Below, one piece after another: positions 39,307 to 61,888 of a stretch of DNA of 64,000 nucleotides. The DNA comes from Tubulanus polymorphus. Taxonomy: Eukaryota > Nemertea > Palaeonemertea > Tubulaniformes > Tubulanidae. Under the pieces are notes generated by a model that was not told the origin of the DNA, did not search any database, and saw only the letters and a program-made list of their open reading frames with translations. Within the stretch, counting starts at the first letter, position 1; each line of letters begins with the position of its first letter. Location: the NCBI RefSeq assembly GCF_964204645.1, contig NC_134030.1, forward strand, positions 7,066,278 through 7,130,277, read 5' to 3'. The position numbers and the translations under genes are program-made.

Positions 39307-42300
39307 ATGACAGATTCGAAAAAAGTAAAAATCGAGGATAAACAAACATTTAAAGAAGCGCTTTCCGACTTCTCCAATGACACGGCATTTCACGGGGTTA
39401 GATACATAGGACACTCTCCAACTATCACCATCAGGTAAGCTTAGCATATCATAGTATAGGATCGTTAGGAAATACACCAATAATATTCACTTTTTGTCAT
39501 CTCAGATTGAAGTATTCATGCATTCCTGTGTATTAAAACTTGTTTCCACCAGCAGAACATATATCCAATTATTTTCCTGGTGTCCTGCATGTTGGTAGTA
39601 TTAAACATAAAATAGAAATGGTACGCTTGTCGGGCGAGTTGAATGAAAAATTTGGATAAAGAATAATGTTTTTATATAAGATATTGTACGACATCTGTTT
39701 TTACGTTAGTAAATCGCCACCAGGCTAAGTTTCCCTTGCTACAGCGGCACCAATCACCCATACTTTACTTAGAAAATGCAACAATTATGTGTAAACGCAA
39801 TTGCAAATAAGAACCAAAAGACCACAATAATTTACAACTTATCAATTTTGCGTACAAGGGGTCGGATGCATCATCAATGTAAAAAATTGTGTTCATGAAT
39901 TTAGTCTGCCTCAAGAGCGAATTTTATACATGATGATTAAAAATATTGAAAAAGACCCCCAGAGACGATGGAAATCGCAATTAGGATTTATTTCAATTGA
40001 AACAAAATTTATCCAATTGCAAATTGCAATTATTATGAATTGTTTGTTGGAATATATAATGAAATAGATATTTATTGCTCCAAGCATACGTATACAATGA
40101 GCACAGATAATCATTTCCATTACAACAGTACATGAACAAAATAGCTTTAAAATTAGTATGCTTTCATGCGATATTTGCATGTTGAATTAACAAGGAAAGT
40201 TTGGAGATGAGATCTTTATTCTAGCAGATAGTTTGTATTGCAAATACACTCGGTCATCGTATGCAAAAAATCTGGTAAATAACGGCGTCAAACTCAAATA
40301 TAAAACTTAAGTTCTCAAATATGAAATTCATCACCGCTACGATCACTGTCACATTGATAACATTTCATTCACCGTCGTGGTGTATTGATAAAACGACCTG
40401 ACTACTGGTAGTTTGCGATACTTTTTGTAGATGTATTTGGTTGATGTTGTTTTTGAGTATGACTGGGGTGTTTATCTACCAGGTGCACAACCGAGTCAAA
40501 TATTACATTTCATGGCCGGTTACCGTGGATATATCTCTCGAAAACAATCGAGGTCAGATACCATTCCCGGCAGTTACCATCTGCAACACAAACACTTTCA
40601 GGTATTTCAATGAGCTACACAAAACAAGCCGCATTGTACAATTTTTCTGATTAGCTTGTCTTTCCGATAAAAGGGCTTATTCTATTGTTAGATTATCTGA
40701 TACATATGAAGACGAGGTGTACGAGTCAATTTTTGAGTTTCACCGCCAGAATGAGAGACCAATAACGCAGATAACTGGAAATATGTCAACTACTCAAAAC
40801 ATTTCAATAACTCGAAGAAATTCGACGGCTTTCGATAATATGGATATGCGGGCATTGATATTGAAATATGGCCATCGTTTGAACGATACCGTGAAATCGT
40901 AAGTTAAAGCTAATCCGTAAATGAAAATTAATTAGTAATTTAAAATACACCCGTTTGATGTCGATAACTGTACATTCCATATTTATTTCAAAAAGCGCAA
41001 ATTTCGAATCCGAGAAATTGACAATTGCTAATCTGACGAGTGTTTTGACTGACTACGGACAATGTTTGGGGTTTAATCTTGATAAAAAAAAGCATCTCCA
41101 CAGCCAAGGGACTGGTAAGTGATGAAAGAAAATTAAATTACGCTTCTGAACGAAACTCATCTTCAATTATTCAATAAAAAGCCTTTTCTACAGGAGTAGC
41201 ATATGGATTGAACTTGTTGATCAACTTAGAACAGTACCAGAACATGGAAGGAGAACACAAATCTGCCGGACTAAAAGTTCTAGTTCATGATAAATATGAA
41301 GGAATTCTTATGAAAGATTTGTCGTTATCTGTACCACCATCGATGAGTGCATTTATCGATGTTCAAGCTAAAATGGTAAACATGTAGATCAGCATATTGC
41401 TCGATCCTAAATATCAGCGGTTAAGCACACACATTTAATCGGAAAAATTATCGAAGATAGATTCGTGAATATACTTGAAACTTCTCATTAACAGACGCTG
41501 AATCCCTTTGAATCCCTTTTTAAGAAAAACGAAAAACGAAAAATGTTCGTAATAAGTTAACCGTAAAATGTTCGTTGCAATAGTTGAGCAGAATCTTAAT
41601 TATTCATACATTCCACGTATGAATAACTTAGATTATATTTGATCAAAAAGCTACATATTTGGTCTATTTGGTATAATTTCAGACGACTGAATTGGAAGAA
41701 CCGTACGGAAAATGCAGAAAAAACGCGCAAAGACAAAGTATGTGTCTACACGACTGCTACGTACGGGTGACGTCATCAATATGTAAATGCATGCCGTTTT
41801 ATGCTGAAGATAATCCTGCAGGTCTACCATATTGTACTTTAAAACAGCACAGGGATTGCTACCATCTACAACTCGGTAATGAAAATGGAGAAGTGGTGTG
41901 CAGTGAGGTCGTTTCTAAACCCAGGGAGAGACCACTAAATAATTGGAAGGTTATATATAACAAAACAGTTAGTCTAGGGGTCAGATGAGTAATAGTGTGA
42001 TCTGTGTGCATTTTTGGCCAGCACACAGATCACAACGATCATTTGTCAGTCAATTAAAAATATTCAGCGATATTTTGCCAATGCGGCATTATTCCTGTTT
42101 ACTATATTTTGCCAATGGCCCGTTCTGATTGGCGAATTTACACAACGCATACGTGCTGAGGAGGCGCGTGACTTCAAGGTAAAATGGTACAAATACGGTG
42201 GTATTCGAACCCGGGCCAGAAATTTGCTAGCGTTGCGCCTAACCAGTAGACCACGGACACTCATAGCAAATAATTGCTCTTATGACAGAAATGAACTGCA

Positions 42301-45110
42301 GCACCTGATGGACGCACATCCATTGTGTTGTCATGTGTCGTGTGAGTACTTCGTTGAATAATGCGTAGTTTGTAATAGATGTATACAGATAGCCTTAAAT
42401 AACTTGCGTAGACATTAAAGTTTAATGATTTTATCGTTCTGCTTTTCGGTCAAGTAAATATTGAATTGAACCAGGACAACCTACCACCCCTCATTATGCT
42501 TATTAAACCAAACGTTTGCACCGACAACAAATTAGTAAAATAGACGTCTTAAAAAATTCAGAAATTGCCAGAATTTTAACTTACGTTAGATCTCATTTTT
42601 ATTTTACAATTGCGATTGGTATAACTTTTTTTAAACGGCCGTTAAGGCTTCATGTTTCGTCTGCAATTCACTGAAAATAGTTACGCAACTACGCACATTT
42701 CAGTGTTTTTGGCAGCTACACTCAATCGGCACCGTTCGTGACTAGCTTCACTGCGGAATTATCATTGATAAACATCCCCATATCACATCATCAACTTATA
42801 TTGTGCCTTAAAACCCTAACAGCCGAAATAATTGAAATGCACACACGATTTATATCATTGAAAACTGAGAATGGCCGTGTTTGTGTTCTGCTGCTTCGCA
42901 CGGTGGCGCAACCGCGCGGAGTGGGGCCGATACGTCTAGCACCTAGCATTGCGCCCCACGTGATCTGACAATATGTTATAAATAACATGTATCAATTCAG
43001 TATAATGTTTTTTTTTTGTAGCGAGAATGCGACAAAATGAAACAGTTTGCGGCACTAGTGAATGCCCACCACCATGCCAACATCTGACGTACGATTCACG
43101 AATCAGTTACGCGGCTCTGTCGAAGAGTATGGCGAGGAAAATGGCACGAAAAGAGAAACACGACCTGAACATGTTAGCAGATTACAGAAAGGCCAGAGAA
43201 ACACTGTATATTACTGACCCTCATCTGGCGGCGATGAGCTTCAATGTAGTTCAATCTTTCATTGAAACACAAAAAGAATCATTGATCGCCGTTACTAACG
43301 CCGTTAACTTTTTGGTAAATCAAAAAGAACTCTTTTCAGATTTGATCTACGTCGGGAACAGTCTCCAACACATTTCACGTTCTGTGCGCATGGCAAAAGA
43401 AATGTTTCTACGCTATACCGAGATGGAAGAAATTTCCACGATAGTTATTTCAGGTTTGAAAAGATTCAAAACGGCCATTACCGACATCCTTGAGTCAGAT
43501 TTTAAAGTTATCAACGATTTCCTAGCGAACTCGTCGGTTGTTTCACAAATGGACTTTCAAGCAGCGTCTTTAAACGTTGTTGGTGTATTTCAAAATATGC
43601 TTAATACGGCGTTATTGACTCGGTCAATTTTTCAGAATCTAATTATCAACCTGGTGCAAGATAAAACTGTAGCGAGGTATATGATCGATTTGCCCAAAAT
43701 CACACATCGCCATAGAATATTTCTCGAATCATGTGATAAAATGATTACTGCCTGCAATGATTCCAAAACAAAGTTGCGCGACATTCGCAACAGTCAACTA
43801 ACACGGGATTGGTATGGTTTTTCTAATCTAACCGGTCAGTTTTACTCCATTATCAGCGAATTCAAAAGATCGGCGATTGATCTGAAATCCGCATTAAAAG
43901 ACGTTGTTTATAGATTGGACCAACTCGAGAATTCCTTCAAAAGTCAAAAATCAGACTTAAGCTACGCATATTTGAAATATGCTCTCATCTTATACGCAAA
44001 CACTATCAGCAAACCTTTATTCTTTAAACCAGCTGGACGGTGGATTTCCCCGTCACCAATAAACGTAATAACTTTAGGTAAAGATATGGGCGAAATAAAT
44101 GCGAATGTCGCTCGACGGCTTAGATCAATGATCGCACACAAAATAATTTCCAACGCAGAACTGAATTCCCTGATGCTTGATAATAAAGACCTACTGGATA
44201 AGTTCACGCGAGACCTTCAAGTGTTCATGGACTCTTCGTTGAAAAAGATGGACATACTCGAAAAAAATCTGGTTCAACTTTGCCAACCTGCTATGGACTT
44301 CTTCTACAACTACATCAGTAATACCAATTCTACTCTCAATGTACGACAGTTGATGGAAATCAAGAAAAAACTGCAGTTTATCATCCAAGAAGATGTTAAA
44401 CTAACCAAAGTCATTGATGAATACCATAATGCACAAACTAAAATGTCAGTTGTGAACTCGATCTTAAACGATCATATGACAAAGTACCGGAATAGCATTG
44501 TTATTGATGAAGATTTTCTAAGGTTAGTATTCTGAGGAGTTTCCGCAAATTGTATTCTGGAGGAATTCTATGTATTGTGCTTAACTTAACCTCTGACATT
44601 TATTTCCAGAAATAATTACGTATACGTTTCAGTCTACTTTCGAACGCTGAGTTTGGAGACGTTGAAAAAGTCTAAAGGATATTTGTGGTTTTCGTTAATT
44701 TGTAAGTAAATAGTAGTTGATTATGCAAACAGGTTCTCATAGTGTGACGTAATAATGATATGACTTAAGATGTAAAAAAGCACTTTGATACAAAATTAAA
44801 TACTTAAAACTAAAGTTGAATTACGCAATTGATCAATTCATTGATTTTTTACAGATAGATAGGTCTATTGAATATTCAGTTAAAACGAACAGCCATCGTT
44901 TGGCTGATTCAGAAGTAGATCTTAATGTGAACAACGAATCCTACTGTTATTACATTCGATTCTCATTCTCATATTTTAGGTGATATAGGTGGTTCTGCCG
45001 GGCTTTATTTAGGCGCATCTCTATTAGCTATCGCCGAGGTCCTCTGGTTTTTCGGATCTCAACTCGTGTATCGCTTTATGCGGCTGCGACGAGTGCGCGC
45101 TGGTGAATAA
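39307..45110 (+). CDS. DEG/ENaC channel with giant extracellular insert, copy 1
   Basis: Trimeric Na+ channel family (ASIC/ENaC/degenerin), plasma membrane. Exons: 39307-39434, 40431-40601, 40692-40898, 40996-41114, 41194-41375, 41683-41875, 43022-44522, 44610-44701, 44980-45110; phases close to 907 residues. In order: cytoplasmic FSNDTAFHGVRYIGH with the HG gating pair; TM1; the family signature QIPFPAVTICNTNTFR; DYGQCLGFN; EPYGKC and the Cys-rich core CKCMPFYAED...LPYC; CPPCQHLTY and SYAALSKS, equivalent to the ASIC knuckle; then about 430 added helical residues with several N-glycosylation sequons; NNYVYVSVYFRTLSLETLKK; and TM2 with GDIGGSAGLYLGASLLAIAE (GAS filter). The short tail is basic (RLRRVRAGE). 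Exon 7 alone encodes about 500 residues. Intron 6 carries a roughly 1-kb insertion absent from the other copies. Gating ligand unknown. Confidence 0.93.
41944..42970. mobile_element. Insertion with tRNA-like (SINE) segment in intron 6 of DEG/ENaC copy 1
   Basis: The equivalent intron is only about 115 bases in copies 2 and 3. In copy 1 the homologous ends are separated by about 1 kb. On the minus strand 42262-42190 contains TGGTCTACTGGTTAGG (A box) and GGGTTCGAATACC (B box), a tRNA-derived SINE head. A perfect 13-bp stem (GTGATCTGTGTGC at 41997-42009 and its complement at 42021-42033) lies near the left edge. More than one element may be nested; the outer ends are approximate. Confidence 0.6.
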
Positions 45111-45378
45111 ATATGAAAACATGGAAATACAACGATGGCTAAGAGACTCGTCTTTGGAGATTATTCATCATTGATTCATGCTAATTGTCGACCTGGAGTA
45201 AAACTATTTTGTATACATCTTCGGAGATTGTTCTGTATTCATCATTGATTCATGATACAATTTACTGAGTCAGGTGCATCGCACCTCCCGTTTATTGAGC
45301 TACGATTTCTTGTTAGAACACAATCTCTGAAATATCTTTGTTATCGAATTTCAAAATTTTTGCTTTAGCGTTCTACGA

Positions 45379-45384
45379 AATAAA
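45379..45384 (+). terminator. Polyadenylation signal, DEG/ENaC copy 1
   Basis: AATAAA in the context CGAAATAAAAGAAAACG, about 270 bases after the stop. The same context recurs after copies 2 and 3, which supports it as the real 3' end signal. Confidence 0.6.
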
Positions 45385-45480
45385 AGAAAACGTTTCATAT
45401 GCTTGCGTTCGTTGTAAATTTTGAATACATCTGGATCGGAAAAGTTGTTTTTCTTCTAACGAACCTATCCAGAGACGTTA

Positions 45481-45591
45481 CCATATCCACGAGACAATTG
45501 ATGGAATTTCGCACTTTATGAAGGGCGTTAAACCAATAATAGGATACCACGGGCGATATGGATTTCACAGAAACATCCCTGGCTGCGGGTA
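45481..45591 (+). pseudogene. Fossil of C17orf98-like exon 3 (unit 2)
   Basis: About 110 bases closely match 37831-37943: CACGAGACAATTGATGG, TTTATGAAGGGC, then a GGATACCACGGG-type stretch. The translated fragment keeps HETIDG, HFMKG and GYHGRYGFHRN, then loses the frame and the WLR end. No exons 1 or 2 lie upstream. It marks the left edge of the second duplication unit. Confidence 0.88.
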
Positions 45592-45652
45592 CGTCTGGGT
45601 TTCATATACGTAAGCGAACTGGCCGATAGGCCTACATTTTCTATTAAATACA

Positions 45653-45739
45653 GAAATAACGTCCGTTCGCACGGATTAATCGAAATAACGTCCGTGCGCA
45701 CGGGTTGATTGAAATAACATCCGTGCGCACGGATTAATG
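45653..45739. repeat. Minisatellite, 3 x 29 bp, with palindromic core
   Basis: Three tandem 29-base units (45653-45681, 45682-45710, 45711-45739), each starting GAAATAAC and centred on CCGTGCGCACGG, a perfect 12-base palindrome (one mismatch in the first unit). Non-coding and absent after copies 1 and 3. Confidence 0.8.
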
Positions 45740-46016
45740 TAAAAGATTTTTACGTATGTCCCCTCCGGGGTTCCGTTAATATATAAGTATATCTGAATAA
45801 AAAGAAATGTCCTGTTCTTAACTTTATCATCATGGACCTACCCTCTAGTCGATGTCAAAGTGTCAAACTTGCGTTAAAAGTACGCGGTATCGCTGTCTCG
45901 ATCTAGAAACCTTGAAGCCTTGGATTTGTTTTTTGGGTGTTCAAAAGTTTATGAAATTAATTTTCATGGTTTTACATTCGAATTGTTTGGTAACCATGAC
46001 AGTAACCTCGTGAAGT

Positions 46017-46100
46017 AGAGGAAGAGAGGAGAGAGGAGAGAGGGGAGAGGGAGAGAGGGAGAGAGGGAGAGAGGGAGAGAGGGAGAGAGGGAGAGAGAAA
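46017..46100 (+). repeat. 84-base pure purine tract (GAGA/GGGA microsatellite)
   Basis: Uninterrupted A/G for 84 bases, mostly GAGAGAGG units. It lies just upstream of exon 1 of DEG/ENaC copy 2, where copies 1 and 3 have only short versions (AGAAAGAGGTAGAG, AGGGAGAGGGAG). Such tracts can bind GAGA-type factors or form triplex DNA. Here it is simply an expanded microsatellite in the presumed promoter. Confidence 0.85.
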
Positions 46101-46153
46101 CAGAGAGTGTGCAGTCAATCACTATTTTACTATAATCATAGGCAGATTCGAAA

Positions 46154-49100
46154 ATGGCATCGGTTAAAATCGAAGACAAACAAACTTTTAAAGAAGCGCT
46201 TTCCGACTTCTCCAATGACACGGCATTTCACGGGGTTAGATACATAGGACACTCTCCAACTATCACCATCAGGTAAGCTTAGCATATCGTCATAAGATCC
46301 GCTAGAAATTATGCTATTAAGATATCACTATTTGTTATCGCAAACTGAACTTTTTATCAATTATTGTGTTTTAAAACTCGATTCCACCTTCAGAAAATGT
46401 ATCAAATTATTATCTCATTCGTATAAGTGGAAATCTACGGAAGCGTCCTGGGGACATAATTGATTTTTTTTTTCTGCTGTCTGAAAAATCATAGAATTAT
46501 ATAAAGATTCGATTTTTTATTAAATGTTATGTTTTTTTGACCGGCGTCGATTTAAATCCGACTTTTTTCACAGAATTAAATCATTTTTTATTTAATTTTA
46601 TCTTTTTCGACTGGTGGCGATTTAATCCCGACTTTTTTCACGAAACTAAATCATTTTTTATTAAATGTTATGTTTTTTCGACCGGTGTTGACTTAATTCC
46701 GATCTTTTTCACGGAGTTAAATCATTTTTTATTTAATTTATCTTTTTTTCGACTGGTGGCGATTTAATTCCGACTTTTTTCACGGAATTAAATCCTTTTT
46801 TTTAATTAAATGCTATGTTTTTTTTCGACCGGCGTCGATTTAATTCCGACTTTTTTCACGGAATTAAAGCATTTTTTTATTGAATGTTATGTTTTTTCGA
46901 CATACTGTGGAATTCCTCACAAGGCCATACGACTTACGAGTTAACGTTTTACGAATTACGAGATCAGCCGTTGGGCGTTTCAGTTCAATTTATCGCGAGA
47001 GGTCAAGGAGAAGCGAATTATGAAACTCAACAGTGGCACGTTAGACTGGTCGCCTGTCCAATTCTGCGCCACCTGCGTTCGCAGTCAGACATCTTATCTA
47101 ATGTAATCAATCTGAAGGTAGAGACCGGCAACCAGTCTATTGCCACGTGAGCTTTCAAACGAGCACTGTATGTGATGGGTGTAATTTTAGCTGAATTTTT
47201 CAACTAATTTTTTGTAACGATGATGGATGGCTCTATGCAGCCCAAACGATGTGTTTCCAAAAAATAAATACATTTCTAAATTGTTGAAAACGTTTAAAAA
47301 ACCTGTTCTAGGAATCGGGATCATGGTCAAAAAGCTCTCCGCCCCGGGGTCCTCGAAAAATGTTTAAAAAATCTTTTCCAGCTAAGATAGTCTATTGAAA
47401 TAAAGATCTTTTAGAATGTATTAGAATCATCGGGCACGTAACCGGGGCAGTGTCAGTGTGTAAATTATTGTCAACATTTTAATAGATTTTGACGGTATCG
47501 CACACCGGCTGGTCACCGCGCAGGTTTCCTGCCCTGTAGTAGCCGTAGCCGGGATTGATCTCACTATGTAAAATGAATACTTTTACAATGAATACTCTTG
47601 ATTACTATTCCGTTCGGAATTACGAAGTCCGTTCTTTGAATCACGTGCCCGTCGGATACTCTGAAGCCAATAGTGAAAAACGTGTAATTCGAAGTCGTAA
47701 TTCGTAAAACGTAACTCGTAAGACGTATGGCCCTTGAGGAATTCCATAGTATGTCGGTCGAAAAAAGTTAAATTTAAAAAAAATGATTTAATTCCGTGAA
47801 AAAAGTCCGAATTAAATCAACGCAAGTCGAAAAAAGATAAAATTAAATAAAAAATGATCTAATCCCGTGAAAAAGTCGGAATTAAATCAACGCCGGTCGA
47901 AAAAAGATAAAATTAGATAAAAAATGATTTAATTCTGTGAAAAAAACGTCGGAATTAAATCGCCGCTGGTCGAAAAAAAACATAAAATTAAATAAAAAAT
48001 GATTTAATTCGGTGAAAAAAGTCGGAATTAAACCAACGCCGATCGAAAAAAAACATGAAATTTAAATAAAAAGTCGAATTTTTATCTAATTTTATGATCT
48101 TTCAATCAGCAAAAAATAGAAAAATTAATTATGTCTGCAGGACGCTTCCGTATAAATCACATCATTTTCAATAAAATTTGAACTTGATTTTAGGCTTCCA
48201 AATACGAACATTATCAAACAATTCAACGAATAGATATAAGATCGACTTTATCACTCAGTTTTATAGATTTAACTGAAAATTATTTTCTTATGAGGGAAGT
48301 CGATTCAAATTTAATTGATTGGTAACCCAGTGCCAATAGCGACCCTGGCAGCTCATCGCTGAATCCTCGCTTGCTACTGTAGCGTTGCCGGTATCCAACT
48401 GCAAAGAACCCCAAAGAACCCATGTAGATAATTTTCAAAAAAGTAGAATTTACTACAATGGTTTGGATCAAGATAACGAAAGCTATAAGTTATGTTCATA
48501 AATTTTGAGTCTGCCTCAAGAGTGAATTTTATACATTGATATATATTTCAAATAGGGTTTGTCGCATAAATCGCTGTTTAAGCATAGACGAAACTATGTA
48601 ATTTGTATGCCAACACTATCCGAATTAATGGTGATTAAAATGTTTAGAAAGGTCCCCCAGAGACGCTGGAAATTGCGATTTGAATTTATTCCAATTGAAA
48701 CGAAATTAGCCCAATTGCAATATTAATGAATTTGTTAGAGTATAAAAACCGACACAGACATCACGTATTTAACCATGGCGATATCAATTAACTATAGGGG
48801 CGTCACAGCAGAAGGATTCGAGGTCCTAAAAGAGAAATATTCGTATATATCACCCTAAACGAGTTGTAATTTCATAATTATAGAAAAATTCGTACCAGTA
48901 TCTCAATATTGAAGATAAATTGTACTTTCTTTTCTCGTACTAAACTTTATGAAGTAGAATGATAAATTGCATGAGCGGAGACGTCTTTTTGTAGATGTAT
49001 CTGGTTGTTGTTGTTTTTGGGTATGACTGGGGCGTTTATCTACCAGGTGCACGACCGAGTCAAATATTACATTTCATGGCCGGTTACAGTGGACAACTGT

Positions 49101-52100
49101 CGAAAACAATCGAGGTCAGATACCATTCCCAGCAGTAACCATTTGTAACACTAACACTTTCAGGTATTTCAGTGAACAAGCCACATTACAAATTTTTTCT
49201 GATCAGCATTTCTTTCCGTTGAAATGGCTTATTCTACTGTTTAGATTATCTGATACTTATGAAGACGGATTGTACGAGTCAATTTCTGAATTTTACCGTC
49301 AGAACGAGAGACGAACAACGCCTAAAACTTCTCAAAATGCTTCAATTACTGGAAATGTTTCGATGGGAGACGCTTTCGAAAATATTGATATGCGGACATT
49401 GATATTGAAATATGGCCATCGTTTGAACAATACCGTGAAATCGTAAGTTAAATCGATGTAGTTTGTAAGATTATCAAGATAAATCCGCTCAATATCGATG
49501 ATAAATTTCGTGTAAATTCCTTCTAATTTCATGAGAGTGAACTTCGAATCCAAGAAATTGACAATTGCTAATCTGACAACTGTTTTGACTGACTACGGAC
49601 AATGTTTGGGGTTTAATCATGATAAAACGAAGCATCTCTACAGCCAAGGGACTGGTAAGTGATGAAAGAAATTGACGCTCATGAACGTAACTTATGTTCA
49701 GTCATTTAATGAAAGCTTTTTCTTTAGGAGCAACATATGGGTTGAACTTGTTGATCAATCTAGAACAGTACCAGAATATGCAAGGAGAACACAAATCTGC
49801 CGGACTTAAAGTTTTAGTTCATGACAAGAATCAAGGAATTCGTATGACAGATTTGTCGTTATCTGTACCACCGTCGATGAGTGCGCTTATCGATGTTCAA
49901 GCTAAAATGGTAAACATGTAGATCAGCTCGATCCTAAATATCAGTAGTTAAGTAAAACATTTCTTTTCGATATATTTGTAACTTCTCATTAACGGACGCT
50001 GAGTCCATTTAAAAGTATACTTTGGTCAGATGAAAAGTGTTTGTAATCAGTTTACCGCAAACGCGTTCGTTGCTATAGTTTTACTTTGTACCAGAATCTA
50101 AATCATTTAATTATACATCGTATGAATGATTTAGATTGAATGTGATCTAAAGCAATTTGGCTATTTGGTATAATTTCAGACGACTGAATTGAAAGATCCT
50201 TACGGAAAATGCATAAAAGACGCCCAAAGACAAAGTATGTGTCAACACCACTGTTATATACGAATGACATCAGCGATTTGTAAATGCCTGCCGTTTTATT
50301 CCGAAGATAGTCCCGCAGGTCTGCCATATTGTACTTTAAAACAGCACAGGGATTGCTACCATCTACAACTCGGTAATGAAAAATTGGAGAAGTGGTGTGC
50401 GGTTGGTCGTATTTTAAAACCCCGCACACTAGAAACAATATGTTATAACTACACGTATCAATTCAGTATAATGCCTTTTTTTCGTAGCTAAAATGCATCA
50501 AAATCAAAAAGTTTGCGGTAATGATGAATGTCCACCATCATGTCAACATCTGACGTACGATTCACGAATCAGTTACGCGGCTCTGTCGAAGAGTATGGCG
50601 AGGAAAATGGCACGAAAAGAGAAACACGACCTGAACATGTTAGCAGATTACAGAAAGGCCAGAGAAGCACTATACAATACTGACCCTCAGCTGGAGGCGA
50701 CGAGCATTGTCGCAGTTCTATCTTTCGTTGAATCACTTAAAGAATCAAAATTCGCCGTAAAAAACGCGTACGAATTTCTGCTTAATCAAACGACGATCAT
50801 TTTTGATACGCTCTCCGTCAGGGACAGTCTTCAAAACATTTCACATTCTGTACGCATGGCAAAAGAAATGTTTTTACGCCATACCAACGTGGAGGAAATC
50901 TCCACGATAGTTATTCCAGGTTTAAAACGATTTAGAACTGCACTGAATGATGCCATTGATTCAGATTTCAAAGTAATCAACAATTTCTTAGCGAACTCGT
51001 CGGTTGTATCACAAATGGATTTTCAAGCAGCGTCTTTAAACGTTGGTGGCATATTTCAAAATATGCTTTATACGGCGTTATTGACTAGGTCAGTTTTTCA
51101 GAATCTAGTTACGAACCTGGTGCAAGATAAAACTGACGCCAGGTATTTGATCGATTTGACTAAAATCACAGTTCACCACAGATTATTTCTCGAATCATGT
51201 GATAAAATTATTACTGCCTGCAATGATTCCAAAACAAAGTTGCGCGACATTAGCAACAGTCAACTAACACGGGATTGGTATGGTTTTTGTAATCTAACCG
51301 GTCAGTTTTACTCCATTATCAGCGAATTCGAAAGATCGGCGATTGATCTGAAATCCGTATTAAAAGACGGTGTTTATAAATTGGACGATTTAGAAAATTC
51401 ATTCAAAACTCACGAATCAGATTTATTCAACGCAGGTTTGAAATATTTTCTAATCATATACGCAAACATGATCAGCAAACCTTCATTCTTCAAAGCAGTT
51501 GGACGTTGGATTTTCCCGTCACCAATTAACGTAATAACTTTGAACAAAGACCTTGTTGAAATGAACAGGAATGTCATTCGACGGCTTCTTCAATCAATGA
51601 TCGTACAAAAGACGATTTCAATATCAGAATTAAATTCTCTGATGCTTGATAATAAAGACCTACTGGATAAGTTCACGCGAGATCTTCAAGTGTTCATGGA
51701 CTATTCGTTGAAAAAGATGGACATACTCAATAAAGATCTAGTTCACCTTTGCCAGGCTGCTATAGACTTCATCTTCTACTACACCACTAAGACCAATTCT
51801 ACTCTTAATATAAAACCATTGATGGAAATCAAGAAACAACTGCAGTTGATCATCCAAGAAGATGTCAAACTAACCAAAGTTATTGATGAATACCACAATG
51901 CGCAAACTAAAATGTCAGTTGTGAACTCAATCTTAAAGGATCATATGACAAAGTACCGGAATAGCATTGTTATTGATGAAGACTTTCTAAGGTTAGTATT
52001 CTGAGGAGTTTCCGCAAATTGTATTCTGGGGGAATTCTAAGAATTGTGCTTAACTTAACCTCTGACGTCTATTTTCAGGAATAATTACGTATACGTTTCG

Positions 52101-52562
52101 GTCTACTTTCGAACGCTGAGTTTAGAGACGTTGAAAAAGTCTAAAGGATATTTGTGGTTTTCGTTAATTTGTAAGTAAATGTTAGTATGCGAAAAGGTCC
52201 TCATAGTTAGTTGTAATACTGATATGACCTAATATGCAAAAAGCCCCTTTGATACAAACCAAAATTTAAAATTAAATCAATTGATCCATTCGTTGTTTTT
52301 TACAGATAGATAGGTCTTGTGAATATTTTGATAAAACGAAAAGTTAACGTTTGGCAGATTCAGAAGGAGATCTTAATAAAATGAATAGCGAATCCTACAC
52401 ATTACATTCGTTTCTCATTCTCATATTTTAGGTGATATAGGTGGCTCTGCCGGGCTTTACTTAGGGGCATCTTTATTGGCTATTGCCGAGGTCTTCTGGT
52501 TTTTCGGATCTCAACTCTTGTACCGCTTGAAGCGGCTGCGACGATTGCGCGCTAGTGAATAA
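46154..52562 (+). pseudogene. DEG/ENaC channel with giant insert, copy 2 (frameshifted)
   Basis: Same nine-exon structure as its neighbours: 46154-46272, 48995-49163, 49245-49442, 49536-49654, 49728-49909, 50180-50372, 50488-51991, 52079-52170, 52432-52562. Exon 2 is 169 bases instead of 171. A 2-base deletion after TCATGGCCGGTTACAGTGGA shifts the frame and gives a stop at 49146-49148, just before the FPAVTICN signature would be read. The first ATG used in copy 3 is also changed (ATAGGCAG instead of ATGGCAG), leaving the next in-frame ATG. All other exons are open, including the 1504-base exon 7 and TM2 with GLYLGASLLAIAE. Without the deletion it would encode about 902 residues. It is either a recent pseudogene, a polymorphic allele or an assembly error. 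Intron 1 holds a 1.7-kb foldback element. Confidence 0.8.
46436..48154. mobile_element. Foldback transposable element with tandem-repeat inverted arms
   Basis: The termini TACGGAAGCGTCCTG (46436-46450) and CAGGACGCTTCCGTA (48139-48153) are exact reverse complements. Long inverted arms (about 46436-46975 and 47670-48154) are built from several diverged subrepeats of roughly 60-100 bases containing TTTAATTCCGACTTTTTTCA. They then continue into a second inverted segment (GGAATTCCTCA, CATACGACTTACGAGTTA). The direct repeat AAATC flanks the element (46431-46435 and 48155-48159). Copy 3 shows a plausible empty site (GTGAAAATCAC near 54566). The core (about 46976-47670) has no recognisable transposase, so it is non-autonomous. 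Confidence 0.85.
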
Positions 52563-52874
52563 AAATAGATACATATTGATGGAAATACAACGATGGCTAA
52601 GCGACTCGTCTGTGGAGATTATTCATCATTGATTCATGCTAATTGTCGACCTGGAGTGAATTTGTTTTTTATAAGTTAGAACCGTATCATTGCATCTCAT
52701 CTCCGTCCTAGGAGATTAGTTTGTATTAATCATTGATTCATGATACAATTTACGGAGTCAGGTGCATCGCACCTCCCGTTTAATGAGCTACGATTTCAAG
52801 TTATCATACATTTTAACTAATCTTTGAAATATCTTTGTTATCGTATTCCACAATTCTACTTTAGCGTACTGCGA

Positions 52875-52880
52875 AATAAA
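52875..52880 (+). terminator. Polyadenylation signal, DEG/ENaC copy 2
   Basis: AATAAA in the same GCGAAATAAAAGAAAACG context as after copy 1. Confidence 0.55.
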
Positions 52881-52990
52881 AGAAAACGTTGCATATGCTT
52901 GTGTTCGTTGTATATTTTGAATAAATCTGGATCGGAAAGGTTGTTTTTCCTCTAACAGACCTATCCAAAAACGTTACCATATTCTACGTA

Positions 52991-53100
52991 TCATTCCCAC
53001 GAGACAATTGATGGAATTTCGCACTTTATGAAGGGCATAAAACCAACAACAGGACTGCACTATTTTCATCAAAAAATGACAACTATTCCTAACGTCATCT
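52991..53100 (+). pseudogene. Fossil of C17orf98-like exon 3 (unit 3), internally deleted
   Basis: The match to 37834-37890 (CATTCCCACGAGACAATTG, TTTATGAAGGGCATAAAACC) then jumps to sequence matching the original gene's 3' flank (CTGCACTATTT..., AACTATTCCTAAC as at 37996-38030). The coding end and stop have been deleted. It marks the left edge of the third duplication unit. Confidence 0.85.
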
Positions 53101-53647
53101 ACGTAACTTCATCGCAATTGACTCATAATACTATGGTGGCTGATTCGGGACATGTGAAATTCTTTTTTCGTTCTCCACGAAAACTCGCAAAACAAATCTG
53201 ACCACGCAAAAACAAACCTTGTAGATAAAAATCAAATTGACTTTTGGCCAAGAGCGACGTATGACTTAGATCTTATGACTTCGTTGTGTGGTTGCGTTAT
53301 AGAAAATGTCTGTGTATCGTTTAAATATCGTTTAAGATAATCAATAAAAAGAAATGTTCGATTTTTTACTTTATCGCCATGTATCTACTCTCTAGTCGAT
53401 GTTACTCTTGCAGTAAGTACGCGGTATCGCTGTCTCGATCTAGAAACCTTTTGTAGCCTTGGGTTTGTTTTTCGGGTGTTCGAAAGCATATAAAACTAAT
53501 TTTTAAGTATTTCATTCGGTAACCATGGCAGTAACCTCGTAAAGTATAGGGAGAGGGAGTGTGTGTGCTAGTCAATCACTATTTTACCATTATCGGTGGC
53601 AGCGCCTCTTTGTCTTGGACTGTTGTCAGAATAAGACCGATTTTACG

Positions 53648-56600
53648 ATGGCAGATTCAAAAATGGCATCTGTTAAAATCGAAGATAAACAAACATTTAA
53701 AGAAGCGCTTTCCGACTTCTCCAATGACACGGCATTTCACGGGGTTAGATACATAGGACACTCTCCGACTATCACCATCAGGTAAGCTTAGCATATCGTC
53801 ATAAGATCGCTAGAAATTATGCCATTAAGATATTCACTATTTGTTAACGCAGGCTGAACTTTTTATCAATTATTGTGTTTTAAAACTTGTTTTAACCTTC
53901 AGAAAAATGTATCCAATTATTTTGTTAAGTGTGAATTGAGGGAAAAATTTGTATAATGAATACAGCCTTAACAAAAGAATAAATTCTACGATGTCGGTTT
54001 TCCGTCAGTTAATCGCCACCCGAGCTATGTTCCCCTTGCTACAGCGGCACCAATCATCCATACTATACTTAAAAACGCATGCCTACGGAGAAGAGCATTG
54101 CGGCCACGTGGGATTTTTTTAACTCGAAATTTCGACTTTATAAACGAGTTTTTAACACATGTGACATGTGCGCACGCTATGTTGTAAAATTCACACTATG
54201 ACACAACAAGATCAATTTTATCCTCTTCTCTTCAAGCTAGGTTTAAATAATGCCGAAATACGATACTGCCTTAGCAAGCACGATAACGTCATTCTAAGTG
54301 ACCGAACAATTACCTCAGTCGAAATTTCGAGATTAAAAGAAGAAATTTCGACTTTAAAGAAAATGTTCATGTGGCCGCAATGCTCTTCCGTAGATACCCG
54401 CACTCACCGGGAGGCACAACAAAACACCGGGAACCTTGTTATGTTTTTAAAACGTTTTTATTCTTCCCTTGATAAAATATGTGTAAATATTTGTAACCAA
54501 AATCATCTTTTCCCTCCACATACCACGGAAATGGTAGGAGATTGATAAATTATCTTATTCGTAGTGAAAATCACTTCATTTTCAAAGAACTTGATTTTCA
54601 GGCTTCCAAATACGAAAGTTGTCAAAGAATTCAACGAATGAATAAATGATCGACTTAATCACTCGGTGATGCAGATTTAACTGAAAATTGATTTACTTAT
54701 AAGGGAAGTCGAATCAAATTTAATTGATATGTAGAAAGAAGCGTGGTAGCCCAGTGCCACCAGCGATCTTGGCAGCTTATCGCTGAAGAATCCTCGCTTG
54801 CTATTGTAATGTTGCTCCACTCCCTGCAAAGAACCCATATACATATAATAATAACTTTATAATAACTTTAAAAAAAGTAGAATTTACTACAAAGATTTGG
54901 ATGCACCATCAATATAACGAAAGTAACAACTTATGTTTATTAATTTGGAGTCTGCTTCGAGAGCGAATTTTATACGTGAATATTTTAAGTATGATCCCAT
55001 TAATCCCTCGTATACGCTGTTGAGTTTATGCCGAACCTTATGTAATTTGTATGTCAACACAATCAGAATTGATGGTGATTAAAATGTTGAGAAAGGCCCC
55101 GGGGACGATGGAAATTTCGATTTGAATCTATTTCGATTGAAACAAAATTTACCCATTTGCAATATTAATGAATTTGTTAGAGTATAAACCAGACATCACG
55201 CGGTAAGCCGTAACGACACCAATTAACCGTTGGCAGGAGGGTAGGAGTCCCAAAGGAGAGATATTCTTATCTATCAATTGTATGAGTTGTCATTTCAAAA
55301 TTTCAAAATTATAGAAAAATGCGCCTTAATATTGAAGATGAATTGTACTTTTTTCTCGTACTAAACTTTGTGAAGTAGAATGATAGAGGAAATGAGCGGA
55401 GATATGTTTTGTAGATGTATTTGGTTGTTGTTGTTTTTGGGTATGACTGGAGCGTTTATCTACCAGGTGCACGACCGAGTCAAATATTACATTTCATGGC
55501 CGGTAACCGTGGATATATCTCTCGAAAACAATCGAGGTCAGATACCATTCCCGGCAGTTACCATTTGCAACACTAACACTTTCAGGTATTTTAAAAAGGC
55601 ACATTATACAATTTTCTGATCAGCTCGTCTATCCGATAAAATGGCTTATTCTATTGTTAGATTATCTGATACATACGAAGATGAGGTGTTCAAGTCTATA
55701 TTTGAGTTTTACCACCGGAATGTGAGACCAACAACGCCGACAACTTCTCAAAACGTTTCGATTATTGGAAATAATTCGATGGGAGACGCTTTCGAAAATA
55801 TTGATTTGCGGACACTGATATTGAAATATGGCCATCGTTTGAACGATACCGTGAAATCGTAAGTTAAATCGATGTAGTTTGTAAGATTATCAAAATAAAT
55901 CCGCTTAGTATCGATGATAAATTTCGTGTAAATTCCATGTCATTTCATGAGAGTGAACTTCGAATCCAAGAAATTGACAATTGCTAATCTGACAACTGTT
56001 TTGACTGACTACGGACAATGTTTGGGGTTTAATTATGATAAAACAAAGCATCTCCACAGCCAAGGGACTGGTAAGTGATGAAAGAAATTGACACTCATGA
56101 ACGTAACTCATGTTCAGTCATTTGATGAAAACTTTTTCTTTAGGAGCAGGATATGGATTGAACTTGTTGATCAATCTAGAACAGTACCAGAATATGCAAG
56201 GAGAACACAAATCTGCCGGACTTAAAATTCTAGTTCATGATAAATATCAAGGAATTCGTATGAAAGATTTGTCGTTATCTGTTCCACCGTCGATGAGTGC
56301 ATTTATCGATGTTCGAGCTAAAATGGTAAACATGTAGATCAGCTTATTGCTCGATCCTAAATATCAGTAGTTAAGTAAAACATATCTTTTTGATAGACTT
56401 GCAACTTCTTAATAACAGACACTGGATCGATTTGAAAGTACTTTTGTCAAAAAGATGTTCGTAATCAGTTAACCGTAAAAATGTCCGTTGCTATATTCTA
56501 TTCGGTCTTTTCGATCAAAAGCTATTTGTCTATTTGGTATAATTTCAGACGACTGAATTGGAAGAACCGTACGGAAAATGCATTAAAAACGCCCAAAGAC

Positions 56601-59036
56601 AAAGTATGTGTCAACACTACTGCTACATACGGGTGACGTCATCAATATGTAAATGCATGCCGTTTTATGCCGAAGAAAGTCTTGCAGGTCTGCCATATTG
56701 TACTTTAAAACAGCACAGGGATTGCTACCAAGTACAACTCGGTAATGAAAATGTAGAAGTGATGTGCGGTAGTGTCGTACTTTTAAAACCCCGCACACTA
56801 GCTACAATATGTTATAACTACATGTATCAATTCAGTATAATGCCTTCTTTTCGTAGCGAAAATGCGTCAAAACCAAAATGTTTGCGGTATTGATGAATGT
56901 CCACCACCATGTCAACAACTGACGTACGATTCACGAATCAGTTACGCGGCTCTGTCGAAGAGTATGGCGAGGAAAATGGCACGAAAAGAGAAACACGACC
57001 TGAACATGTTAGCAGATTACAGAAAGGCCAGAGAAGCACTATATATTATCGACCCGCATCTGGCAGCGATGGGCTTTGCTGCAGTTCTATCTTTCATTAA
57101 ATCGCAAGAGGAATCAAAATCCGCCGTATTAAACACGCACAAAATTATGGTTGATCAAGAAAGAATAATTTCAGATTTGATCTACGTCCAGGGCAGTCTT
57201 CAAAACATTTCGAATTCAGTACGCATTGCGAAAGAAATGTTTTTACGCCATACTAACAGCGAAGCAATCTCCACGACAGTTATTCCAGGTTTGAACACAT
57301 TTAAAACGGCCCTTACTGATACTCTTGATTTAGATTTCGAAGTTATTAACGATTTCCTAGCGAACTCGTCGGTTGCATCACAAATGGATTTTCAAGCATC
57401 GTCTTTAAAAGTTGGTGTGGTATTTCAAAATATGCTTACTACAGCGATATTGACTAGGTCAGTTTTTCAGAATCTAGTCATCAACCTGGTGCAAGATAAA
57501 ACTGTAGCGAGGTATATGATCGATTTGCCCAAAATCACACATCGCCACAGATTATTTCTCGAATCATGTGATACAATGATTACTGCCTGCCATGATTCCG
57601 AAACTAAATTACGCGTCATTCGCAACAGTCAACTAAAACGGGATTGGGACCATTTCTACAATCGAACCGGTCAGTTCTACTCCATTATCAGCGAATTCCA
57701 TAAATCAGCGATTGATCTGAAATCCGTATTAAAAGACGTTGTTTATGGATTAGACCAACTCGAGAATTCCTTTAAAACTCACAAATTAGAGATAACAAAC
57801 GCATATTTGAAGTATTTTCTAATCACATACGCAAACATCATCAGCAAACCTTCATTCTTCAAACCAGTTGGACGCTGGATTTCCCCGACACCAATTAACG
57901 TTATAACTTTGGCCGAAGACATTATCCAAATGAATGAAAATTTCACTGGATGGCTCAAAACAATGATCGCACAGAAACAGATTTCTATAGCAGAATTGAA
58001 TTCTCTGATGCTGAAAAATAAAGACCTACTGGAAAAGTTCGCGGAAGATCTTCGAGTGTTCATGGAATATTCGTTGAAAAAGATGGATGCAGTCGTTAAA
58101 GATCTAGTTCAACTTTGCCAGCCTGCTATAGACTTCTTCTACAACTACATCAGTAAGACCAATTCTACTCTCAATGTACAAGCGTTGGCGGGAATAAAGA
58201 AAAGACTGCAGTTTGCTACCCAAGACGAGGCTAAACTAAGCAAAGTCATGAATGAATTCCACAATGCGCAAAATAGAATGAGAGTTACTAACTCAGTCTT
58301 AGACGATCATATTACGAAGTACAGGAATAGCATTGTCATTAACGAAGACTTTGTAGTGTTAGTATTCATATGAGTTTCTGCAAGTTGTTCCGCGGTTATA
58401 TGTTTTACATTTAACCTCTGACATTTATTACAGGAATAATTACGTATACGTTTCTGTCTACTTTCGAACGCTGAGTTTGGAGACGTTGAAAAAGTCTAAA
58501 GGATATTTGTGGTTTTCGTTAATTTGTAAGTAAATAGTAGTTGATTATGCAAACAGGTTATCATAGTTAGATGTAATACTGATATAACTTAGAATTTATA
58601 TAGGTACCTTGATACACAAATTTTAATTCCAAAAATAAAATTGAATGAATTGATCAATACATTGGTTTTTACAGACCAATAGGCCAAGTGAATTTTGTGT
58701 TAACATGAATTGCCTATGCTAGGTGGCTTAAGCCAGATTCCAAGCAATGACTTAGATAAACTATTATTAGTGGATTGTTGAGTCCCTTGAGTATTGTAAC
58801 CGTGGACGATAAAATGAACATTTTAGTAGATTCAGAAAGAGAGTTTGAAATAAAATATATAATGAATCCGACATGTTACATTCGTTTCTCATTCTCATAT
58901 TTTAGGTGATATAGGTGGCTCTGCCGGGCTTTACTTAGGCGCATCTTTATTGGCTATTGCCGAGGTCTTCTGGTTTTTCGGATCTCAACTCGTGTACCGT
59001 TTGAGGCGGCTGCGACGAGTACACGCTGGTGAATAA
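53648..59036 (+). CDS. DEG/ENaC channel with giant extracellular insert, copy 3
   Basis: Intact family member. Exons: 53648-53781, 55415-55585, 55661-55858, 55952-56070, 56144-56325, 56549-56741, 56857-58357, 58434-58525, 58906-59036; 2721 bases, 906 residues. Rough positions: HG gate near 34; TM1 about 47-67; FPAVTICN after TM1; EPYGKC and Cys-rich core about 270-332; C342/C347/C351 of CGIDECPPPC; SYAALSKSMARKMARKEKH about 362-380; added helical region about 385-815 with NSS, NST and NIS glycosylation sequons and a few cysteines; NNYVYVSVYFRTLSLETLKK; TM2 about 863-885 with GAS filter; basic tail. The exon 7 donor is GT|GTTAGT rather than the AG|GTTAGT of copies 1 and 2. This weakens the site but keeps phase (Val replaces Arg). 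Most similar to copy 1 in sequence and most likely functional. Confidence 0.93.
54084..54392. mobile_element. Short inverted-repeat element in intron 1 of DEG/ENaC copy 3
   Basis: The ends TACGGAGAAGAGCATTGCGG (54084) and CCGCAATGCTCTTCCGTA (to 54392) are inverted repeats with one 2-base indel; GCCACGTG/CATGTGGC extends the match. About 309 bp, absent at the same place in copy 1. The internal open frame has no known domain. The outermost bases, TACGG, are shared with the foldback element of copy 2, suggesting the same transposase family mobilised both. Confidence 0.75.
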
Positions 59037-59761: not shown

Positions 59762-60733
59762 TCATTTTGAGCAATTTCGATACATCGAATCGACGACAGG
59801 ATTTGATTTTAGTCTTATATCGTACACCCATTCGTGCAGTAAACGTTCGCCAACCATCAAACGTTCGTTCATCATTCCCGCATCGCAGCGCCTCTCAACG
59901 AACGGTAAATACGGCCGAAGATTCGCGCAGTCAGTTTTATCCGGGGTTGTTCCCGACTCCCTCCTGTGATTCCAGTAACCGGCTTTACATTCGCGGTCAA
60001 CATCACCGTACATCGTCGTGACCACTTTCTCGGTATGTCTGGGCGCCGGTAGCCACATACCGTTAAACGGTACGTTCACCAATGGGTGAACGTCAGCGGA
60101 AGATATAATAAGCTTATCGTTCCGAGAGTCGTAAACGCTACCGTTAGATTCATACGACGGCCACATATCAACGAACGGCCATCTCCACGGGTACTTGTGA
60201 AACGCGCTCGATTTGCCGATTCGAAATAATTTCCACTGACCTTTGAAGTCCTTTCTCGAATGAATTTTTAAATTAATCGGTGGTTTATTACCCTTGGCGA
60301 ATACATCGTCCCTGAGTTTGGCTAAATCTGACTGCGGTATCAAAACATCGTAATCGTCGTCCCACGGTACGAGGCCATGGTGCCTATAGGCGCCTATCAG
60401 CGAACCTCCGTGCAGCATGTAAGTGAGATTATTTTGTTTCATTAGTACGTCGAAATCCCTGATTAGCTCCAGGAATTCTCGTTTATCCTGCGGATTTTGA
60501 CCGAGTTTGAACCTGGTTAGTTTCATGATCGCCGGAAAGTGGGGATACTCATGAACGTGTTTCTTTAAACCGAGCTTCACCGTTCTTAATCGTTCGTCGA
60601 TGGAATACGCCGAATAGGCAGCGGCAAAAATCTCAAACTGATGTAAAACGTACATCACAATTATCATAAACGATAAAAAACAAAGACAGAAGAACTTGCG
60701 GTGTTGTAAAGCCGTTGACCACATAGCCGCCAT
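59762..60733 (-). CDS. LicD/fukutin-type family type II membrane protein
   Basis: Probable Golgi-lumenal nucleotidyltransferase-fold enzyme of the LicD family, whose members transfer phosphocholine or other phospho-groups onto glycans. Single coding exon, 323 residues. A short basic N-terminus is followed by one membrane anchor (about 14-37), so the catalytic part would face the lumen. The LicD core is clear: LHGGSLIGAYRHHGLVPWDD with DDYDV (about 107-130), the metal-binding acidic motif. It is followed by KFFRIGK-like sequence (WKLFRIGKSS), WPFVDMWPSY and several cysteines toward the end. N-glycosylation sequons NLT and NGS are present. A splice acceptor (TTTGCAG) lies just upstream of the ATG, so a 5'UTR intron is likely. 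A downstream Met at residue 4 could also start it. The substrate is unknown. It is convergent with the DEG/ENaC array and follows the minus-strand 7TM gene. Confidence 0.9.
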   Translation of the reverse strand: MAAMWSTALQHRKFFCLCFLSFMIIVMYVLHQFEIFAAAYSAYSIDERLRTVKLGLKKHVHEYPHFPAIMKLTRFKLGQNPQDKREFLELIRDFDVLMKQNNLTYMLHGGSLIGAYRHHGLVPWDDDYDVLIPQSDLAKLRDDVFAKGNKPPINLKIHSRKDFKGQWKLFRIGKSSAFHKYPWRWPFVDMWPSYESNGSVYDSRNDKLIISSADVHPLVNVPFNGMWLPAPRHTEKVVTTMYGDVDRECKAGYWNHRRESGTTPDKTDCANLRPYLPFVERRCDAGMMNERLMVGERLLHEWVYDIRLKSNPVVDSMYRNCSK

Positions 60734-61888
60734 GTTTCTCTCGTGTCCTGCAAAATTCGATCGCTAATTATCTAAACGCCTCCGAAAACGAAAATAGCAC
60801 TTTCTAGATATTTTCAACACAACCTATCGGAACGTGGCTATCAACGTTACTGGATGGATTCTGAATCGATAATTATTGAATTAATGGACATTATCTTGTT
60901 TACCCCATATGTTGTGCGATGGCTGTTTGAGTAGCTGCGAGTTCCAATGAGAATAGATAATCTGCGAATCGGTAAACAAAATGGTGCAAACGTCAATGTA
61001 CCAGGTGTAAGTGAACATTGTTCGAATATTTTCTGACGACACATCTTTGGATCGGGATCGTGCTACGCCGTAGATTTGTGAAAATAAAATGTTAATCTTA
61101 TGTGGCATTTTGTCCAAACATTTCATTTTAATGATAAAGTGAAATAATGCGTAACATATCTATCTATCTATGAAGCAGTGGCTTCGACATAATTTAGATT
61201 TTTTTAACGCCGTAAAAACCGTTGTGCGAGTCGATGTGCACTACGTTATCAATATTGGCGTTTCAAAATAACAAATAACAATTGCAATCGTGTATTTTGG
61301 GGTTTGTTTTATTGAAATTAGAAATATTTCATTACTCTTATTTCATATTTTATGAATTCTAGGATTATTTTCGACAGGATATGCAATACGTCATCGCCGT
61401 ATCGGGGCTAGACTGGTTGCCGGTCAATTCTATTTATCTTTATTTCAATAAATACTTCATCAGTTATTTTGATTATTGCAAAGTCAATAAAAGTCAATTG
61501 CAAAGTCAATTCAATAAAATATTAAACATAACTTAATTGGACCCTTAACATTATACAACTTAACCATGTTCAGCATAGTAGCTTTAAGTTATATTATGTA
61601 CCGTATATATGTTTTATTCGCGATTTGAATTACAATTTGAAGTAGCAAGAATAGATACAAAATAATGTTATATAAGACGCTGGACGACAGGTGAAGTTAA
61701 AATAAACTTATTACCTGAAGTCGCCCAAAGTTAATTAGACAAATCGTTTAGATGAACTAGAAAATTGATCTTTGTGTGTTATTTTTATACGTGTAGTTTG
61801 TGATCATTTTAAAGGCTCCTCACACACCTGGTGGATTCTTGATTTCCACGGGCGGTGTTCCATTGTTATGATGAAATAAAAAGTCATA
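60734..61888. other. Intergenic region between LicD-like and 7TM receptor genes
   Basis: It holds the LicD 5' leader and promoter side and the 3'UTR of the 7TM gene. Repeat fragments at 61206-61255 and 61365-61426 match the repeat at 4.4 kb (CAATACGTCATCG, then TAGACTGGTTGCCGGTCA). No gene is seen. Confidence 0.5.
61613..61618 (-). terminator. Polyadenylation signal AATAAA (minus strand), 7TM receptor gene
   Basis: TTTATT on the plus strand, about 270 bases past the 7TM stop codon on the minus strand. Confidence 0.4.

Follow-up and report, generated by a model that had tools for sequence, protein, structure and literature searches.

The window, a stretch of 64,000 nucleotides of Tubulanus polymorphus DNA (C6:7066278-7130277), contains three tandem genes, each with nine coding exons that all have GT-AG ends, which are identified by their sequence as DEG/ENaC channel subunits. 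Full gene models were built only for these three window copies, by joining exons through splice sites and reading frame, and the genome that was searched comprised 268 Mb in 77 contigs. Exon 7 (1501-1504 bp) is open in all three copies and has exactly the coordinates, with GT-AG ends, that had been proposed by an earlier reading of the letters (the sequence-only reading). In copy 2, a 2-bp deletion in exon 2 (48995-49163; 169 bp against 171 bp in copies 1 and 3) shifts the frame, and this copy is either a pseudogene or the product of an assembly or sequence error. The features, in window coordinates, are as follows.

39307-45110, + strand: copy 1, intact DEG/ENaC gene of 908 codons including the stop; splice ends, frame, HG motif, CRD cysteines and GLYLGAS filter
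39307-39434, 40431-40601, 40692-40898, 40996-41114 and 41194-41375, + strand: coding exons 1-5 of copy 1
41683-41875, 43022-44522, 44610-44701 and 44980-45110, + strand: coding exons 6-9 of copy 1
43022-44522, + strand: exon 7 of copy 1, with the end of the CRD, the knuckle helix and the insert; Pfam ASC matches the start of the exon only
43162-44522, + strand: insert of copy 1, residues 381-834
46154-52562, + strand: copy 2, frameshifted DEG/ENaC gene with exon 7 open
50488-51991, + strand: exon 7 of copy 2, carrying the insert at 50628-51991
53648-59036, + strand: copy 3, intact DEG/ENaC gene of 907 codons including the stop; matches ASIC2 at E 3.6e-44 without the insert
53648-53781, 55415-55585, 55661-55858, 55952-56070 and 56144-56325, + strand: coding exons 1-5 of copy 3
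56549-56741, 56857-58357, 58434-58525 and 58906-59036, + strand: coding exons 6-9 of copy 3
56857-58357, + strand: exon 7 of copy 3, carrying the insert at 56997-58357

Synonymous divergence between copies 1 and 3 (window 39307-59036) is uneven along the gene, ranging from 0.08 to 0.58 with some stretches near-identical, a pattern suggestive of gene conversion among the tandem genes. Intron 1 of copy 2 contains similar short repeats (ATTTAATTCCGACTTTTTTCACGG and its reverse complement) at 46460-46910 and 47740-48100 that, by eye, face one another and are perhaps the ends of a mobile element.

Relation to known DEG/ENaC channels

Membership of the DEG/ENaC family, as assigned by the sequence-only reading, is borne out by an HG motif before TM1 (FSNDTAFHGVRY), a G-x-S filter within TM2 (GGSAGLYLGAS), a cysteine-rich ectodomain and a Pfam ASC match in copy 3 (at C6:7121687-7122388) of 80.7 bits against a curated cut-off of 23.6. 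When copy 3 without its insert was compared with solved structures, ASIC2 (E 3.6e-44) and ASIC1 (E 1.3e-40) matched nearly end to end. The FMRFamide-gated channel 7yvb and ENaC alpha (each E about 4e-21) matched with partial coverage, Aplysia FaNaC reached E about 3.7e-21, and Malacoceros FaNaC1 (E 1.3e-13) matched over its N-terminal part only; FaNaC is not the closest of the solved channels to copy 3, the ASICs matching far better. Outside the insert, the order of TM1, finger, thumb, knuckle, last strand and TM2 with a GAS filter is that of ASIC1 and ASIC2, but between the knuckle helix and the last strand the ASICs have about a dozen residues where the window channels have 454. H73 and K211 of ASIC1 are the residues used for proton gating, and since their places hold V and G in the alignment with ASIC1, ASIC-type proton gating is unlikely in these channels.

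ENaC also has an extra element in its ectodomain, the protease-sensitive GRIP region, through which gating is tuned, but this element sits in the finger instead of following the knuckle and is no helical domain of 450 residues. The EGAS channels of nematodes are likewise DEG/ENaC channels with an added extracellular domain, although one that is EGF-like, cysteine-rich and of known fold. FaNaC, gated by FMRFamide in molluscs and annelids, is likewise a spiralian member of the DEG/ENaC trimer family, and its peptide pocket adjoins the knuckle helix (PMC11026163); it differs in its GIS filter (PMC11026163), where the window channels have GAS, in its weaker match and in having no such insert.

The insert and the exon that carries it

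Counted from where the knuckle helix ends (KEKH) up to NNYVYV, the insert spans 454 codons, which in copy 1 are residues 381-834, and alignment to ASIC2 and ASIC1 places the insertion point after the knuckle helix and ahead of the final ectodomain strand that precedes TM2. The sequence-only reading had correctly put a large insert at this site but had estimated it at about 430 residues, and its description of the insert as next to the pore was misleading, the insert being near TM2 in sequence whereas the knuckle occupies the outer top part of the ectodomain, away from the pore.

In insert-free paralogues, the homologous knuckle exon is 151 bp (C6:5.90M) or 145 bp (C6:4.61M) long, as counted by hand, flanked by a phase-1 intron upstream and a phase-2 intron that immediately precedes the last strand. 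Exon 7 of the window genes lies between introns of the same phases, 1 and 2, and the lengths of 145, 151 and 1501-1504 bp all leave a remainder of 1 on division by 3. Because intron phases and length remainder are shared with the insert-free paralogues, comparison of these exons shows the insert to be an in-frame enlargement, by about 450 codons, of one old exon encoding the last ectodomain cysteines and the knuckle helix. The growth, of about 1350 bp, took place at the 3' end of this exon, just before an old intron. At least one further paralogue without the insert, at C3:7.37 Mb, encodes knuckle to TM2 in a single exon, and at C3:5.63 Mb the whole ASC profile is matched within one exon.

At the base composition of exon 7, an open frame of 500 codons would arise by chance with a probability of about 2e-15. 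Pairwise omega for the insert is 0.33-0.69 among nine members of the gene array described below, with synonymous divergence up to 0.7, and between copies 1 and 3 omega is 0.49 for the insert, 0.42 for the N-terminal core and 0.13 for the part after the insert. These ratios show the insert to be under relaxed purifying selection, conserved as protein and evolving faster than the channel core. In the C6:2.304M group, C8:15.195M, C2:1.508M and C6:4.094M the insert is split by introns at differing points, and the split inserts still continue in homologous or length-matched sequence. Skipping of exon 7 would break the frame, because 1501 mod 3 = 1, and would remove conserved knuckle cysteines. Given the omega values, the improbable open frame and the introns at unrelated points elsewhere, the insert is strongly supported as coding sequence. 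The concern of the sequence-only reading over cryptic introns is weakened by those unrelated intron points, by the evolution of the exon as protein and by the frame lost on skipping.

The insert is low in glycine, proline and cysteine; that of copy 1 contains four N-glycosylation sequons and three cysteines, much as the sequence-only reading had described, and sequons number from two to nine per member insert. Its length is near-constant at ~420-470 residues, its ends are conserved, and in 17 members W242, F245 and L270 (numbering from TYDSR) do not vary. Hydrophobicity of the family profile is periodic with a peak at 102 degrees (3.53 residues per turn; z about 14 against shuffled columns), and the periodicity of the copy 1 insert gave a z of 6-7 compared with 1.3-1.5 for its own core ectodomain, the sequence pattern of amphipathic helices. 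Two AlphaFold runs with the three window sequences returned 12-13 helices and no strand, at a pLDDT of about 45 and a pTM of 0.27-0.34, and with so low a pLDDT the models were too weak for fold searches. The helical character foreseen earlier thus recurs in periodicity and models alike, from which we infer an extracellular all-alpha domain; its arrangement as a helical bundle in three dimensions is predicted with the low confidence of those scores. As the sequence-only reading had suggested, the insert resembles no known domain, with no above-cut-off match in Pfam or NCBIfam and no convincing homologue in the PDB. Weak PDB matches to designed bundles, nucleoporins and the heptad regions of viral fusion proteins were dismissed as coiled-coil resemblances because each covers a different short part of the insert profile.

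Insert-bearing genes across the genome

The three tandem copies recognized at the outset all lie in the window, one of them frameshifted, but the insert is not confined to them: genome searches with the insert, and then with distant members as queries, located it in at least 25 genes on seven contigs, 21 of the 25 inserts being homologous by profile comparison and four alike in place and length only. The window insert as query found an array at C6:7.109-7.175 Mb with nine insert genes, six of them downstream of the window, together with C2:26.139M. Distant-member queries added C10:9.997M, C6:2.304M, C6:2.334M, C4:8.830M, C6:9.867M, C8:15.195M, C4:5.439M and C4:5.446M, as well as three genes on C11 and C2:1.508M, and a second subfamily comprises C6:0.543M, C6:4.094M and C1:0.963M.

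With the knuckle left out, profile comparison unites 18 members, all but two of the group pairs reaching 95-99.9% probability, mostly over full length, against at most 2.4% for reversed-sequence controls. The C11 trio matches the 18-member profile over its last ~125 residues (95.6%, E 1e-8). C2:1.508M and the second subfamily gave no sequence match to the main family inserts in this comparison, and have place, length (~440-470) and helical pattern in common with them. The groups are strongly supported in a tree of the inserts. Taken within this genome, these relationships show the insert to be old, predating the spread of the family over several contigs, with tandem multiplication afterwards. 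Relatives of the insert were absent from the prokaryote and viral collections searched. Roughly 20 other DEG/ENaC loci were counted by eye in the genome, most of them unchecked for the insert, and by this count the insert is carried by about half of the animal's DEG/ENaC repertoire.

LicD-type genes occur close to insert-bearing DEG/ENaC genes, no more than about 7 kb away, in two unrelated regions, namely beside copy 3 (window 59765-60763, - strand) and beside all three C11 copies (C11:7540047, 8178366 and 8653477). The whole genome has 36 LicD-type matches and the proximity was noticed post hoc; the C11 LicD and channel copies may be one duplicated block.

Proposed role of the insert

The knuckle helix of FaNaC1 and the finger helices of the adjacent subunit together make up the peptide pocket; the knuckle is described there as relatively static, and the outer knuckle-finger corner as a site that matters for gating in the family at large (PMC11026163). 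The insert begins where the knuckle helix ends and, because its two ends neighbour each other in ASIC1, would on geometric grounds leave and return as antiparallel helices. It would then rise over the knuckle, alongside the adjacent subunit's finger helices, where an outside partner (a peptide, the matrix or a neighbouring subunit) would bind the helical domain and move the knuckle-finger contact, so opening or closing the cation pore. We assign a probability of about 0.5 to the insert being an extracellular helical sensor or assembly module on this gating corner. A sensor or assembly module is favoured because the insert has changed more quickly than the core and the genes form a large, tandemly arranged set; both features would suit recognition of varied partners.

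The main rival, with a distinctly smaller chance, is a mechanical tether, in which a long helical rod would reach the matrix or cuticle and its displacement would pull the knuckle and open the pore. The DEG/ENaC family includes mechanosensors, each member insert has two to nine sequons, ENaC N-glycans have been proposed as matrix tethers (PMC7958617), and a paper that PMC10148893 cites has a title placing such glycans in palm and knuckle. The insert nevertheless contains no adhesion domain and no matrix-protein repeats, and fast evolution with tandem expansion fits variable recognition better than a fixed mechanical link. About as unlikely is a dedicated assembly domain, whereby helices of the three subunits pack together and choose which paralogues form a trimer. 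The heptad-like periodicity of 3.53 residues, the weak profile matches to coiled-coil and designed helical bundles, and the many co-resident paralogues are consistent with such packing, but both ends of the insert are at the outer knuckle, off the threefold axis, and known channels of the family assemble without it.

The moderately high omega, up to 0.69, could instead reflect a loosely constrained spacer without specific function, kept since it is harmless to folding, and the second subfamily has no detectable likeness in sequence to the main family. This is made improbable by a length that hardly varies (~420-470 residues), by the conservation of both ends, by the invariance of W242 and F245, and by a helical pattern clear in all groups. 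Scarcely credible is the absence of the insert from the protein, an intron having been misread as exon, for which the status of copy 2 as pseudogene or sequence error might speak. Against it, the reading frame is under purifying selection, long open frames at this position number more than 20, introns interrupt the insert elsewhere in other genes, and skipping exon 7 would break the frame.

The DEG/ENaC ectodomain is commonly seen as a fixed 'hand and ball' with variation mainly in the finger; here the knuckle has gained a domain as large as all the remaining protein, and this design has spread through about half of the animal's family members. Such an architecture would provide a natural way to test how the pore is opened by force or ligands acting on the knuckle. 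No description of a DEG/ENaC channel with such an insert was found in a literature search limited to open-licence papers, and similar channels may sit unnamed in protein databases. One family survey dropped poorly aligning segments and sequences over 1000 residues (PMC9234716) and another removed doubtful sites and gap-rich sequences (PMC9822975), so published family trees could have missed the insert. We tentatively suggest, at somewhat less than even odds, that these genes form an undescribed DEG/ENaC class, about half of this spiralian's repertoire, with the helical domain as a dedicated sensor at the gating corner and a possible function as spiralian sensory receptors.

The window also contains an exon of a Cys-loop receptor with the ligand-binding and membrane part (12225-12857, + strand) and an exon of a secretin-family GPCR (61892-63997, - strand). 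The same contig carries, 1.5 Mb from the channel array, a compact Hox cluster (C6:5318231-5634756) whose roughly ten homeoboxes share one strand and follow an apparent order. COX1 did not turn up in the assembly, and the animal was placed in Spiralia by Lox5 instead: one gene of the Hox cluster reads as Lox5, with KLNGP after the homeodomain, a spiralian mark.
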